A DNA stretch of 64,000 nucleotides, from positions 1 through 64,000 of the forward strand of contig JAUILK010000006.1 in NCBI GenBank assembly GCA_030433275.1, in the 5' to 3' direction. Below the pieces are notes generated by a model. The model was not told where the DNA came from. It saw only the letters and a list, made by a program, of their open reading frames with translations, and ran no database searches. Made by a program: the position numbers and the translations under genes. This document shows positions 54,665 to 64,000 of this stretch, one piece after another. Origin of the DNA: Gammaproteobacteria bacterium. GTDB taxonomy: Bacteria; Pseudomonadota; Gammaproteobacteria; Nitrococcales; Nitrococcaceae. Each line of letters starts with the position of its first letter. Position 1 is the first letter of the stretch.

Positions 54665-56611
54665 ATGCTGCAAACCATCCGAGATCGGGCGCAAGGTATA
54701 GTGGCCTACATCATCGTTGGTCTGCTGATTATTCCTTTCGCTTTTTTCGGTCTTTACAATTATTTTACGGGAGATTCAAATCCGGTCGTTGCGACCGTCA
54801 ACGGCATCGATATCACGCGTGCCGAATTGGATGCGGCCGTGCAGCGTCAGCAAAGTCAATTACGTAAGTTGTTGGGTGATCAATACAATCCGACGCTGTT
54901 TGATGAGAACCATCTGCGCCCGAAGGTGCTCGACCGCCTGATTGACCAGGCTGTGCTATTGTATTTCGTGCGTAGCCATGGGTTTCGCGCGACGGATGAA
55001 TCGCTGCGTTCATTTATTCAGAGTCAGCCGTATTTCCTCGTCGACGGTCAATTCTCAAAGGAGCGCTACCGGGCGGTATTGCGGCAGAATGGCTATTCTT
55101 CGGACCAATACGAGGCTCAACTGCGCCAGCAGCAGTTATTGCGGCAACTGGAAGTCGGTATCGCCGGCACGGCCGTGACTAGTGAGCACGAAGTGGCGCG
55201 ATTCGTGGCGCTCGAGCACCAAAGCCGCGACCTGGCGTGGCTCAAGGTCGACTCAGCAAATTTCCAGGACCCGTCCCAAGCGTCCCAAGTGGACGCAAAG
55301 GCCATCAAAAAATATTACGATACGCACAAACAAGCGTTTGAACAGCCCGCGCAAGTCAAGGTTTCTTATATAGAGCTCTCCGAGAACGCCCTGGCAGCTC
55401 ATCTCGAGCTGGATGCCACAACAGTGCGCCGGTTTTACGAGGAATTCAAAGACAGTCGGTTTACAGTTCCTGGGGCGCGCCGAGTTCGTCATATCCTAGT
55501 CAAACTGCCGAAGGCTGCGAGCCAGCAACAGGTCGAAGCCGCCCGTGGGCAAGTTGAGGCATTGCGCCAGCGAATCATGAGGGGGGTGAGTTTCGCCGAA
55601 GTCGCCCGCAGCGAGTCTCAGGATTTGGGCTCGGCGCGGCAGGGCGGTGATCTTGGTTTCGTGCGTCGGGGAGAGATGGTTAAGGCGATCGATGAGGCGG
55701 CTTTCAAGCTCTCAATCGATGAGGTCAGTAAGCCCGTGCGTAGTCGGTTCGGCTGGCATCTCATCGAGGTTACGGCCAGTCGCCCCGGTGGGGTCAAGCC
55801 GTTCAGTGAGGTCGAAGCACAGCTTCGCCAGGAATTGCTTAAGCAGCAGTCGGATAAGCGTTTCTATGAGCTTAGCAATCAGGTGGCCAATTATGCCTAT
55901 GAGCATCCAGACAGCCTTGAGCCAGTAGCCGCCAAATTCGGCCTCAAAATTCGTCGGAGCAATTGGTTCTCGCAAACCGGCACTGAGGGAGGTATCGCCT
56001 CACACCGCAAGGTCATCAAGGCCGCTTTCAGCGACGAAGTTCTGAAACAAGGACTCAACAGTCAAAGCATCGATCTCGGCGATGAACAGCAGGTGATTTT
56101 GCGTGTCGATCAGCACAAACCGGCTACTGCGCGCCCCTTGGCCGAGGTGCGGGATCGAATCCGCGAGCATCTGGTCACCGTAAGAGCATCTGAACAGGCC
56201 CAAAAGCTTGGTGTGCAGTTGCTCGAAAAAGCGCAATCCGGACAGACCCTCAAGGCTTTGGCTGAGGCTAATCAGCACGCTCGGTACTCGGCCATGGGGT
56301 GGGTACAACGTGGCAGCAACAAAGCGCCAGCTGCCATTGTGGAACAAGGTTTTCGCCTACCGCATCCAAACGGTGATGCGCCTGCTCTGGCGGGGATCGA
56401 GCTGTCGGATGGAGGCTATGGTGTAGTGGAAGTGCGCGGTGTACGTGACGGCGCGCTCGACAATCTCGACGCGGCCGAGCGCACGCAGGTACGCCAAGCG
56501 CTGCAGCGTTTGAACTCCGAGTCCACTCTGCAGGCGATGATCCACATGCTACGCCAACAGGCTGACGTGCAACTCGATCGAAAGCAGGTCCCGGTGGGCG
56601 ATGAATCGTGA
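54665..56611 (+). CDS. ppiD: Periplasmic folding chaperone PpiD (SurA N-terminal + PpiC domain)
   Basis: PpiD is anchored to the inner membrane and assists proteins leaving the Sec translocon. The N-terminal helix is GIVAYIIVGLLIIPFAFFGLY. A SurA-like chaperone domain (VATVNGIDITRAELDAAVQ) follows, then one parvulin domain (ARRVRHILVKLPKA ... GGDLGFVRRGEMV) and a C-terminal chaperone region. The length is 648 residues. It ends 8 nt from convergent fabI. Confidence 0.95.
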   Translation: MLQTIRDRAQGIVAYIIVGLLIIPFAFFGLYNYFTGDSNPVVATVNGIDITRAELDAAVQRQQSQLRKLLGDQYNPTLFDENHLRPKVLDRLIDQAVLLYFVRSHGFRATDESLRSFIQSQPYFLVDGQFSKERYRAVLRQNGYSSDQYEAQLRQQQLLRQLEVGIAGTAVTSEHEVARFVALEHQSRDLAWLKVDSANFQDPSQASQVDAKAIKKYYDTHKQAFEQPAQVKVSYIELSENALAAHLELDATTVRRFYEEFKDSRFTVPGARRVRHILVKLPKAASQQQVEAARGQVEALRQRIMRGVSFAEVARSESQDLGSARQGGDLGFVRRGEMVKAIDEAAFKLSIDEVSKPVRSRFGWHLIEVTASRPGGVKPFSEVEAQLRQELLKQQSDKRFYELSNQVANYAYEHPDSLEPVAAKFGLKIRRSNWFSQTGTEGGIASHRKVIKAAFSDEVLKQGLNSQSIDLGDEQQVILRVDQHKPATARPLAEVRDRIREHLVTVRASEQAQKLGVQLLEKAQSGQTLKALAEANQHARYSAMGWVQRGSNKAPAAIVEQGFRLPHPNGDAPALAGIELSDGGYGVVEVRGVRDGALDNLDAAERTQVRQALQRLNSESTLQAMIHMLRQQADVQLDRKQVPVGDES

Positions 56612-59585: not shown

Positions 59586-60464
59586 ATGCTGAATGCCCCG
59601 AGCAGGCGGCGAGCGCGGTTTAAGCAGGTGTTGTTGGTGTCGGCGGCGATCGGTCTTGGAGTGTCTACCACGGGCACCTGGGCAGGCGATGCGTCCGCTG
59701 GCGCTACTCTTTTCCAGCAAAAATGCGCGGCCTGTCATACTATTGGCCAAGGTGACAGGGTGGGTCCGGATCTCAAGGGAGTTACCAAAGAGCGCGATGA
59801 AGCGTGGTTGAAGGAATGGCTTAAAGACCCGGCCGCGATGATCGCTTCGGGCGATCCGGGCGCCAAAGAACTCAGTTCAAAATATCCTATGACTATGCCC
59901 AACCTGGGGCTGTCGGACCAGCAGATTGATGATCTGATCGCTTATATGGCTCAAGATGGAGCCGCGGGTGCTCAGTCCTCAGCAGGCGGCGCCGCCGAAT
60001 CGGCCGCGGCTCCTGCGGCCGCGGCTTCGGCGGAGAGCGCGGGCTCGGCCGACCAGGGCGAGCTGTTGTTCACTGGTGAGGCGAGTTTTCGAAACGGTGG
60101 TCCATCCTGTGCCGCTTGCCATAGCGTAGCCGGGTTGGGTGGCGGCAGCATGGGGCCAGATCTGACGAGCACGCACAGTCGGCTCGGCGATGCCATGATC
60201 ACTTGGCCATCGGCGATGGCGCCGATGCAGCCGATCTTCTCTGCCGACCCATTGACGGATTCCGAGAAGGCCGATTTGCTTGCTTTCTTCAAGGCGAAAG
60301 CGGCAAATCCCAATCAGTCCTCCGGCGGGCCGGTAGGTATGCTGCTTGGCTTGTCCATCATCGGGGTTGCGGCGCTCGGGGCGATCGTGAGCTTCGTTTG
60401 GCGGCGTCGGATTATTGCGGTCCGTGAGCCCATGGTGTCGGGTACCGGCCGTTGGCGGCGTTGA
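59586..60464 (+). CDS. Membrane-anchored di-heme cytochrome c
   Basis: The 292-residue protein has an N-terminal signal peptide (residues 13-33). A first class I cytochrome c domain binds heme at CAACH (47-51). An Ala/Ser/Gly-rich linker (125-155) leads to a second domain with CAACH (175-179), and a C-terminal membrane helix (about 256-276) ends in a basic cytoplasmic tail. Probable axial Met residues are in KYPMTMPN and APMQPIF. AAGGAGG precedes the ATG. It lies 62 nt before the alpha subunit of a NarG/NxrA enzyme, so it probably passes electrons to or from that complex on the periplasmic side. Thermus narC and the Nitrobacter-type nxr cluster have comparable cytochromes in this position. 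Confidence 0.9.
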   Translation: MLNAPSRRRARFKQVLLVSAAIGLGVSTTGTWAGDASAGATLFQQKCAACHTIGQGDRVGPDLKGVTKERDEAWLKEWLKDPAAMIASGDPGAKELSSKYPMTMPNLGLSDQQIDDLIAYMAQDGAAGAQSSAGGAAESAAAPAAAASAESAGSADQGELLFTGEASFRNGGPSCAACHSVAGLGGGSMGPDLTSTHSRLGDAMITWPSAMAPMQPIFSADPLTDSEKADLLAFFKAKAANPNQSSGGPVGMLLGLSIIGVAALGAIVSFVWRRRIIAVREPMVSGTGRWRR

Positions 60465-60526
60465 GCGCCAATGACCGGGAAACAATGACCACTGAATTGC
60501 GATTTCGACGAGGAGGCTACTAAGCT

Positions 60527-63500
60527 ATGGGCTGGATTCAGGATCTTATCAATCCCAAGACACGCCGGTGGGAGGAGTTTTACCGCAACCGCTGGCAGCA
60601 CGATAACATCTTCCGCAGCACCCACGGCGTGAACTGCACGGGTGGCTGTTCGTGGGCGATTTACGTTAAAGACGGCATTATCACCTGGGAGATGCAGCAG
60701 ACTGACTACCCCTTGCTCGGGCGGGGTGAAGGCGGCCGTGGTATACCACCTTATGAGCCGCGTGGTTGTCAGCGCGGCATCTCTGCGTCCTGGTATGTCT
60801 ACAGCCCGATTCGCGTCAAATACCCTTATGGTAAGGGTGTGTTGCTGGATTTCTGGCGCGAGGCTCGCTCCAGCCACAACAACCCGATCGAGGCGTGGAG
60901 CTCCATCGTCACCGATGAAAACAAGCGCAAGCGTTGGCAAAAGGCCCGCGGCAAGGGCGGCTACCGGCGCACGACCTGGGACGAACTCCTTGAGCTCATC
61001 TCCTCCGCTTGTCTTTACACCGCGCAGAAGTATGGGCCCGATCGGGTGATGGGTTTCTCCCCGATCCCGGCCATGTCGATGCTCTCTTATGCGGCCGGTG
61101 CGCGCTTCCTGCAGCTCTTCGGCGGCGTGAACATGAGCTTCTACGACTGGTACGCCGATCTGCCCAACTCCTTCCCGGAGATCTGGGGTGACCAGACCGA
61201 CGTCTGCGAGAGTGCCGACTGGTACAACAGCAAGTTCATCGTGTCGATGGCCTCCAACCTCAACATGACCCGCACCCCGGATGTGCACTTCATCTCCGAG
61301 GCGCGTCATGAAGGTGCCAAGTTTGTGGTGTTGGCGCCGGATTTCAGCCAAGTCAGCAAGTACGCTGACTGGTGGATTCCGGTCAAAAAAGGGCAAGATC
61401 TGGCCTTGTGGATGGCCGCGGGTCATGTCATTTATACCGAGTTTTACGTCAAGCGCCAGGTACCCTACTTCGTCGACTACGTGTCCCGTTACACGGATAT
61501 GCCGTTCCTGGTCAAGCTCGAGAAGGAGGGTGACGGCTATCGTCCGGGTCGCTACCTGACTAGCGAAGAGGTCAAGAAGTATAAGAAGCAGGAGAACGCC
61601 ACCTGGAAGCAGATGGTGTTCGATCGTAAAAGCGGCGAGACCCGCTGCCCGAAAGGTCAGGTCGGCCACCGACACGGCAAGCACGGCCAGTGGAACCTCA
61701 AGATGGAGGACGGTCTCGACAACAGCCCCATCGATCCAGTGCTGAGCTTCATCGGTGAGAGCGACGAAGTCGCGATGGTGCAGTTCTACGAGTTCGCCTC
61801 AGAGACCATGTACAAGCGCGGCGTGCCGGCGAAGAAGATCGACACCGGCAGCGGCAATGTATTGGTCGCCACCGTGTATGACCTCAACATGGGCCAGTAT
61901 GCCGTGAATCGCGGGCTTCCGGGGGATTACCCGGAGAGCTACGACGATCTCAAGCCCTACACTCCGGCCTGGCAGGAGCAATTCAGCGGCATCGGCCGGC
62001 AGACGGTCATCCGTTTCGCCCGCGAGTTTGCCGGCACCGCGGAGAAGACCAAGGGCCGCTCGATGGTCATCGTCGGCGCCAGCGCTAACCACTGGTATCA
62101 CAACAACCACATCTATCGGGCCGCGATCAACTGTCTGATCGCATGCGGTTGCTGTGGGCGCAACGGTGGCGGCATGAACCACTACGTCGGGCAGGAGAAG
62201 CTCGCGATCGTGGCGCCGTGGAACGCCCTCGCACTGAGCGGCGATTGGGGTATCAAGCCGCGTCTGCAGCAGTCGCCGATCTGGCATTATGTCAACAGCG
62301 ACAGCTGGCGCTATGAGGGCTCGTTCGAGGAGTATGCGCCCTCGCCACCCAATGCCAAGTGGGCCAAAGGCCACTCCGTCGATTTGGTTGCCAAGTCGGT
62401 GCGGCTTGGCTGGATGCCGCACTATCCGCAGTTCAATCGCAGTCCGCTGGAAATCGCCAACGAGGCGCAAAAAGCGGGTGCGAAGGACGAGAAGGGGATG
62501 GCCGACTACGTGGTGCAGGCCCTGAAAAAGAAGAACTTGAGCTTCTCGGTCGACGATCCGGATGCTCCGGAGAACTGGCCGCGAGTGTGGTTCATCTGGC
62601 GGGGCAACGCCATGCAGTCGAGCGCCAAGGGCGCAGAGTTCTTCCTGCGGCATTACCTCGGCACGCATGACAACGCGGTTGCCGAAGAGCGGGCCAAACC
62701 GCACGTCAAGCATGTCAAATTCCGGGAGCCGGCACCGCGCGGCAAGTTTGACCTAGTGGTCGACATCAACTTCCGGATGGACTCCACGGCGCTGTATTCC
62801 GATATCGTTCTACCGACGGCCTTCTGGTACGAGAAGAACGATCTCAACAGCACCGATTTGCACTCGTTCATCCATCCGTTGGGTCAGGCGGTGCCGCCGG
62901 TCTGGGAGTCCAAGAGCGATTGGGATATCTTCAAGGCGTTTGCCAAGAAGATCAGCGAAATGGCACCCAGCGTGTTCCCTGAGCCGGTGAAAGACATCGT
63001 CGCGGGACCGCTTACGCACGACACGCCGGATGAGCTTGCCCAGCACGACGTGAAGGACTGGCTGACAGGCGAGTGTGAGCCCATTCCGGGCAAGACCATG
63101 CCGCATTTCCGGGTTGTCGAGCGTGATTACAGTCTGATCTACAACAAGTACATTTCCTTGGGTACCGCTATTCGGGAAAACGGTATCAGCGGTAATGGTT
63201 GTGGCTTCCCGATCACGAAGCAGTACGACGAGCTCTGCAATCAGCCGGTTGGAGGCTCTCCCGACCCGCGCCATCGTCGAGCGGTCGAGTGGGGCGGCAA
63301 GCGTTATCCGTGCGTCGAGGACGCGCTCGATGCCGCCAATGTTCTGTTGTATCTGGCGCCGGAGACCAATGGTGAGGTCTGCTACCAGGCGTTCAAGTCG
63401 GAAGAGGAGCACTGCGGCGTTCCGTTGACCGATTTGGCTGAGCCTTACCGCGGTCACCAGGTAACCTTCTATGACCTCACCCGTCAGCCGCGACGGTTGC

Positions 63501-64000
63501 TGTGCAGTCCGGTTTGGACCGGTAATTGTGGTGATGGTCGGGCCTATTCAGCGTGGACGCTGCAGATCGATCGGCTGATTCCGTTCCGGACGCTGACCGG
63601 GCGGCAGCACATCTACATCGATCATCCTTGGTATATGGACTTCGGCGAGCATCTGTGCACCTATCGGCCGAAGCTCGACTACAAGAAGATCCATGACCTG
63701 GATAATAGCCCGATCGATGACAAGACCTTGATCCTGAACTACATCACACCGCACGGGAAGTGGAATATCCATTCCACCTACAAGGACAACCACCGCATGT
63801 TGACCTTGTCCCGCGGCATGGATCCGGTATGGATCAACGACAAGGATGCGGAGCGGGTCGGTCTGAAGGACAACGACTGGGTCGAAGTCTATAATGATAA
63901 CGGCGTGATCGTGACGCGTGCGAACGTGAGCCGTCGAGTGCAGTCGGGTATGTGCCTGTACTACCACGCCGTCGAGCGGACTATCTACATACCCAAGTCG
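60527..64000 (+). CDS. narG/nxrA: Nitrate reductase / nitrite oxidoreductase alpha subunit (NarG/NxrA), 3' end outside window
   Basis: The frame is open from ATG 60527 (AGGAGG 10 nt upstream) to the window edge, 1158 residues, nearly the whole of this family of about 1200. It is the Mo-bis-MGD catalytic subunit. The FS0 cluster ligands are His33, Cys37, Cys41 ([13 protein letters not shown]) and Cys81 (YEPRGCQRG). The Mo-ligand Asp is Asp211 in FYDWYADLP. Family blocks such as [34 protein letters not shown] and [19 protein letters not shown] are present. There is no Tat signal, so it faces the cytoplasm. The short N-terminus beginning [20 protein letters not shown] and the preceding cytochrome c resemble Nitrobacter/Nitrococcus-type NxrA more than E. 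coli NarG; direction of the reaction is inferred. The Cys41-Cys81 gap is five residues longer than in E. coli. Confidence 0.93.

Follow-up and report, generated by a model that had tools for sequence, protein, structure and literature searches.

The window studied here, bases 1-64,000 of the 110,527-base contig JAUILK010000006.1 (C19) from a gammaproteobacterial genome of 3.41 Mb (104 contigs, rated 100% complete), ends inside a five-gene respiratory operon, which very probably encodes a nitrite oxidoreductase (Nxr) of the Nitrobacter type, namely a membrane-bound enzyme that faces the cytoplasm. The alpha subunit falls in the NxrA clade, the genes for a cytochrome, alpha, beta, NarJ and NarI are clustered, and the genome carries genes for an oxidase and for CO2 fixation. 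Most likely, the operon represents one more example of an enzyme kind already known, not something new. A preliminary description of the window had raised the possibility of an Nxr rather than a nitrate reductase (Nar), and the phylogeny, sequence identities and topology test given below support this reading. Citations marked "in part" refer to the accessible part of the source.

Phylogeny of the Alpha Subunit

From 182 alpha sequences of at least 1150 amino acids (154 distinct; shorter ones, including both G004 copies, G292 and the G296 copy on contig C54, were left out), two trees were built: a FastTree of 90 sequences, comprising 74 sequences plus 16 of the 80 labelled as ordinary NarG, and an IQ-TREE of 40 sequences with bootstraps, comprising 18 of the 22 Nxr-clade sequences, 17 NarC-type (Thermus-like) sequences, including G826 and four Chloroflexota sequences at 60% identity, and 5 ordinary ones. 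The alphas of the window's genus, the Nitrobacter-like genomes and eight Chloroflexota genomes form one clade (support 100 and 100/100, respectively), in which the genus is sister to the Nitrobacter-like sequences (95 and 99/95). This Nxr clade is nested within the NarC-type reductases, including those of Thermus (L054) and Meiothermus (L050), both of which it excludes at 100/100, while ordinary NarG, including that of E. coli, falls outside the combined group. When the genus was forced together with ordinary NarG, the tree became 99 log-likelihood units worse and was rejected (p-value of the approximately unbiased test, p-AU, 0.0002). Two sequences were placed against their labels: L053_18418, labelled narC, grouped with ordinary NarG, and L117, labelled ordinary, with the NarC-type. 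The comparison of NarG and NxrA that the preliminary description had called for accordingly joins the alpha subunit to Nitrobacter-like NxrA and the Chloroflexota group, not to denitrifier NarG, and its topology would place the origin of the cytoplasmic Nxr inside the NarC-type reductases.

The Nitrobacter-like sequences were recognized by their loci. In G207, a cytochrome c gene is followed by nxrA, a gene for a 233-amino acid FKBP-like protein, nxrB, narJ, narI, a NarK-like gene and a TDT-like gene, the last of which was named by eye. The genes nwi_0773-0780 of N. winogradskyi, which has two nxrA copies, are in the same order (PMC4786786, in part), and the G207 sequences were therefore taken as Nitrobacter-like.

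Within a set of 144 genomes, the window's own among them, 36 match the alpha subunit at E 1e-100 or better: the four other genomes of the genus are 82-97% identical, G110 (a narC-G-H-J-I cluster followed by two major facilitator superfamily genes, by eye narK) 56%, two short pieces 55 and 59%, and the rest 47-50%. Such conservation within the genus makes the gene far more than a chance reading frame. Of 391 genomes in the family of Afipia massiliensis, 106 match; copies of 66-70% identity occur in six (G165, G207, G229, G265, G292, G296), five of which carry two copies each, and the remaining matches stand at 45-53%. Among 400 Chloroflexota genomes, 21 match at E 1e-300 or better; the eight that carry Nxr-clade alphas (L180-L188, L178) are 71-73% identical, G826 63%, second copies and G905 59-60%, and the rest 46-49%. 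Identity is thus 66-73% to the Nxr clade outside the genus, 50-63% to NarC-type reductases and about 45-53% to full-length ordinary NarG.

The alpha subunit scores 1476 bits against TIGR01580 (narG; cut-off 1084) and the beta subunit 648 bits against TIGR01660, over its cut-off; NarJ lies just above its curated cut-off (60.8 vs. 59.35), and NarI slightly below that of NCBIfam (99.2 vs. 105.55) and far above that of Pfam (192 vs. 22.9). None of these curated models distinguishes Nxr from Nar. Among solved structures, those of E. coli NarG come closest (1218.8 bits), compared with 110.8 bits for the anammox NxrA 7b04, and the alpha subunit is therefore not a periplasmic NXR of the Nitrospira/anammox type. 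As the preliminary description had noted, the N-terminus is short and of a cytoplasmic type, with neither a twin-arginine translocation (Tat) signal nor a hydrophobic leader discernible by eye. No other NarG-type gene was found in the genome.

Gene Organization of the Locus

Table 1. Genes of the operon and their positions in the window and the contig
Feature	Position	Strand	Evidence
narC-like membrane-anchored di-heme cytochrome c, 292 amino acids	59586..60464	+	PF00034; two CxxCH; C-terminal hydrophobic stretch
nxrA, alpha subunit, 1218 amino acids	60527..64000 in the window, continuing to contig base 64183	+	TIGR01580; tree; gene order
nxrB, beta subunit, 512 amino acids	contig 64265-65803, beyond the window		TIGR01660
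narJ	contig 65823-66599, beyond the window (start codon chosen by the analyst)		curated narJ model
narI	contig 66612-67301, beyond the window		Pfam

The operon comprises a cytochrome c gene directly before alpha, as previously described, followed by the beta, narJ and narI genes, which came to light when the contig was read past the window edge as the preliminary description had advised (Table 1). The window itself holds the first 1158 residues of alpha, and its reading frame is open up to the end given in Table 1. A DnaQ-like exonuclease gene lies 541 bases past narI. The order from der through the operon to the exonuclease gene is identical in all four genomes of the genus with complete loci (G000, the window's own, to G003), and the fifth, G004, in which the contig ends within alpha, agrees from alpha to the exonuclease gene. 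The nearest upstream neighbors, named by sequence inspection, are clpX, lon, hupB, ppiD, fabI and der. The PpiD-like gene (by eye; window 54665-56611), which follows the hupB-like gene and precedes that of the cytochrome by about 3 kb, has an ordinary housekeeping role and is not nxrX.

The earlier statement that neither narK nor narXL lies upstream is upheld, for narK by tblastn with two NarK-like proteins of G110, neither of which matched within the window or contig 58,001-98,000, and for narX and narL by sequence inspection, no homology search having been aimed at either. The genome's own NorB likewise had no tblastn match in these two regions. The contig was read from base 1 to 98,000, leaving out the last 12.5 kb.

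The Question of NxrX

The preliminary description had proposed looking for a PpiC-like NxrX between the alpha and beta genes. The gap there is 81 bases and has no room for nxrX, and in the Nitrobacter-like and Chloroflexota loci NxrX is instead FKBP-like and near SlyD (PF00254; SlyD model NF008008 below cut-off). Alpha, nxrX and beta stand in a row in G207 and G229; in G265, G165 and G296, nxrX is directly behind alpha, and a full beta gene was not seen there. Three of the eight Chloroflexota loci (G871, G1061, G935) have nxrX and five (G1077, G763, G146, G825, G809) lack it, the two sets forming separate subclades at 100/100 each. Because these five loci belong to the same clade as the operon, the missing nxrX does not decide between Nxr and Nar, and its absence together with the narHJI order was dropped as a sign of a nitrate reductase. 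The preliminary description had named as contrary signs a plain narHJI order, a grouping with denitrifier NarG and denitrification genes near by; the plain order was found, which for the same reason does not discriminate, but the grouping was not, nor was NorB on contig 1-98,000. Enzymes of the present clade can thus do without nxrX, which has been put forward as a marker.

An FKBP/SlyD-like gene occurs elsewhere in all five genomes of the genus (L213 9116-9703, on contig C42 of the window's genome), where it adjoins a gene for a small mono-heme cytochrome c. It has 53-57% local identity to Nitrobacter-like NxrX; a second comparison gives 49-50%, and 48-50% against the SlyD proteins of E. coli and P. 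aeruginosa. In a tree it joins the NxrX sequences at only 89/93, and the best tree also splits the genus gene and SlyD from the other NxrX at 74/80; the second NxrX/SlyD tree omitted slyD2_CFX_G1077, which looks by eye like a fragment of an isocitrate dehydrogenase. This unlinked gene may encode either NxrX or a housekeeping SlyD. In G825 (L184 8391-10154), nxrA and nxrB are separated by an uncharacterized open reading frame of 587 amino acids. In G1077, G763 and G146, the last an Anaerolineales metagenome-assembled genome, a second narCGHJI set of the group with 58-60% identity is near by, and these three genomes offer a natural Nxr/Nar pair for comparison.

Cofactors, Electron Transfer and Partner Enzymes

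The cytochrome matches Cytochrom_C (PF00034, 77 bits), has its CxxCH motifs at residues 47 and 175 and, judged by eye, a signal-like stretch at the N-terminus in addition to the C-terminal hydrophobic one; it is 41% identical to the cytochrome that precedes nxrA in G207. The alpha subunit keeps the Asp that binds molybdenum (Mo) and the His and Cys residues that bind the iron-sulfur (Fe-S) cluster FS0. The 15 cluster cysteines and Trp220 of NarH (beta) and the four heme histidines of NarI are also kept. In Thermus, the corresponding cytochrome, a fourth subunit, interacts with NarI and is required for maturation, and in Nitrobacter electrons are described as passing from the NarG homologue via the NarI and NarC homologues to complex III or IV (PMC7694296, in part).

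In the proposed scheme, nitrite and water would give up two electrons to NxrA at the Mo-bis(molybdopterin guanine dinucleotide) center of this subunit, yielding nitrate. The Fe-S clusters of NxrA and NxrB would relay the electrons to the NarI-like subunit with its two hemes b, and from there they would reach the periplasm-facing di-heme cytochrome, a soluble cytochrome c and an aa3 oxidase. Some of the electrons would go uphill to NAD+ and so supply CO2 fixation through form I RuBisCO, and NarJ would act as a Mo-cofactor chaperone. The direction in the cell would be from nitrite to nitrate, although the enzyme could probably also run backwards as a nitrate reductase.

The partner enzymes of this scheme are present in the genome. 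CtaD of an aa3-type oxidase is over its cut-off, with coxB- and coxC-like neighbors by eye, and the large and small subunits of form I RuBisCO and CbbX are all over their cut-offs; a second RuBisCO-like protein is also encoded. At the RuBisCO locus (L198 1867-5088, contig C7), cbbX and a LysR-like gene accompany the genes for the two subunits. A genome-wide search for NirK gave no match; NirS was not searched for. The combination of an aa3 oxidase and form I RuBisCO with CbbX, and no NirK match, fits an aerobic autotrophic nitrite oxidizer. A single-subunit NorB of 756 amino acids is encoded on contig C2 (L200 1890-4160), and in a genome with no NirK match it perhaps serves in defence against nitric oxide.

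Identity of the Organism

The organism most likely belongs to, or is very near, the marine nitrite oxidizer genus Nitrococcus. Of the 23 genomes of its family in the 144-genome set, five belong to the window's genus (3.2-3.7 Mb), 14 to a single other genus (1.2-2.2 Mb) and four to others (2.7-4.6 Mb). Nitrococcaceae includes Nitrococcus, Spiribacter and Arhodomonas (PMC10408702, in part), and the Spiribacter genome is small (PMC3832224, in part); since the make-up in genera fits these three, the family is taken to be Nitrococcaceae and the genus is probably Nitrococcus. The core genome, first described as Chromatiales-like, would be better read as one of the GTDB order Nitrococcales. A Nitrobacter-type NXR in Nitrococcus is already in print (PMC8387239 and PMC3578206, both in part), and a limited search of the open-licence literature found no paper on the operon in the present species.

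Alternative Explanations

A respiratory nitrate reductase of the Thermus type (NarCGHJI), working in the reductive direction with the cytochrome used for assembly and electron branching, has the identical narC-G-H-J-I layout (L054; PMC7694296, in part), and the preliminary description was right that the layout alone does not decide. The nesting of the Nxr clade among NarC-type enzymes, the NorB elsewhere in the genome and the lack of nxrX also agree with such an enzyme, which we nevertheless consider unlikely. The NarG of Thermus and Meiothermus is 57-58% identical to the alpha subunit (among the best 80 of 593 stretches in a scan of named genomes, from which records near the window's genome may be missing), compared with 66-73% for the Nxr clade, from which both are excluded at full support; many NarC-type loci have a narK-like gene near the operon, whereas none was found on contig 1-98,000, and NirK had no match. 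That the operon is an ordinary denitrifier-type NarGHJI as in E. coli, adjoined by a cytochrome gene by chance, is highly improbable: the curated cut-offs for narG, narH and narJ are passed and E. coli NarG provides the closest solved structures, but the grouping with ordinary NarG was rejected, the identity to it is about 45-53%, and every one of the four complete loci of the genus has the cytochrome gene ahead of alpha. There is equally little to be said for an anoxygenic phototroph that oxidizes nitrite with light, as has been reported for Thiocapsa KS1. A phototrophic ancestry has been proposed for Nitrobacter and Nitrococcus, and phototrophic nitrite oxidizers are named among their relatives (PMC3578206, in part); however, the present genome has an aa3 oxidase (reaction-center genes were not searched for), and in the order of G145, where 36 of 210 genomes match the alpha subunit, none is more than 49% identical and no Nxr like that of Thiocapsa KS1 was found.

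Several observations weigh against a Nitrobacter-type Nxr in a Nitrococcus-like host. The curated models label the alpha subunit a nitrate reductase; nxrX is missing and the order is plain narHJI; and no nitrate/nitrite transporter was found on contig 1-98,000, the part of the genome searched, although a cytoplasmic active site needs one somewhere. The Nitrobacter- and Nitrolancea-like tree sequences owe their assignment to gene order and taxon rather than to record titles, and a clade of the other 13 Nxr sequences to the exclusion of the genus was rejected weakly (p-AU 0.028), so that the branching inside the Nxr clade is less sure than membership in it. The genus name rests on the make-up of the family. 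An 18-base Nitrococcus probe had no match in the five genomes of the genus and one match, outside rRNA, in the 144 genomes; rRNA could be absent from the five genomes or masked in them, or the probe sequence could be in error, and the probe was set aside as uninformative for naming. The RuBisCO locus has CbbX and no carboxysome gene recognized by eye, whereas N. mobilis is described as having a carboxysomal form IA RuBisCO (PMC1904183, in part).

Residues Specific to Nxr and Their Meaning

At 22 alignment columns, a residue shared by at least 95% of the 22 Nxr sequences is found in no more than 6% of the 50 NarC-type and no more than 6% of the 82 ordinary sequences; at least 20 of these states occur in every sequence inside Nxr and at most 4 in any outside. 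At a further position, adjacent to the Mo-ligand Asp, all 22 Nxr sequences have Ala, compared with 2 of 50 NarC-type and 12 of 82 ordinary ones. By a looser count, Nxr has 27 clade-unique columns compared with 7 and 4 in two NarC-type clades (14 and 11 sequences), and other groups of 4 to 9 sequences have 8 to 82. As proof of Nxr the signature was rejected, since common descent alone can yield such a set; because these controls show related groups gaining such columns by descent, the 22 columns are a lead, not a test. It is tempting to speculate that in the NarG branch nitrate reduction gave way to nitrite oxidation once, inside the NarC-type, and that a few alpha substitutions set the catalytic direction, but we regard this scenario as doubtful. 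The list nevertheless provides a means of testing what sets the direction of Nar vs. Nxr, an old question. As the curated models call the gene narG, annotation would list the organism among the nitrate reducers, though it is most likely a nitrite oxidizer.

Comparison with Known Systems

Nitrobacter, Nitrococcus, Nitrolancea and Thiocapsa KS1 have been treated as one Nitrobacter-type group (PMC8387239, in part), and Nitrobacter nxrA is 47% identical to narG of related denitrifiers (PMC13101473, in part). The operon shares with Nitrobacter the order of cytochrome c, alpha, beta, narJ and narI; in the Nitrobacter-like G207, G229, G265 and G165, alpha is 69-70% and beta about 69% identical to it. 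Unlike the Nitrobacter-like loci, it has no nxrX, nor does it have the NarK-like and TDT-like genes that lie behind narI in G207 and G229. Several nxrA copies are known in Nitrobacter (PMC12815253 and PMC13101473, both in part), and Nitrobacter-like genomes carry orphan extra copies, whereas the window's genome has a single alpha copy. Within the genus, G001 has a second, stand-alone nxrA (L035 8723-12385; 89% identical to the window's) that lacks an adjacent beta gene and lies roughly 1.8 kb away from nsrR-nnrS-like genes, and G004 (L039) has another (85%); the same nnrS region of the window's genome (L212) has none. As orphan copies also occur in Nitrolancea (PMC7365893) and Nitrobacter-like genomes, duplication of nxrA appears recurrent.

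The Chloroflexota operons (Nitrolancea and relatives) are 71-73% identical in alpha, and like the present operon five of eight lack nxrX; by contrast, the other three have it, and three of the five carry the second narCGHJI set, neither of which is seen here. Thermus NarCGHJI has the same layout, with the cytochrome as a fourth subunit, but its operon includes narK and narT (PMC7694296, in part), and its alpha subunit lies outside the Nxr clade. E. coli NarGHI (PDB 1Q16 and others) belongs to the same fold family, and its Mo, Fe-S and heme b ligands are kept in the present enzyme; it differs in lying on the other main branch of the tree, in having no cytochrome c gene and in having narK directly upstream.

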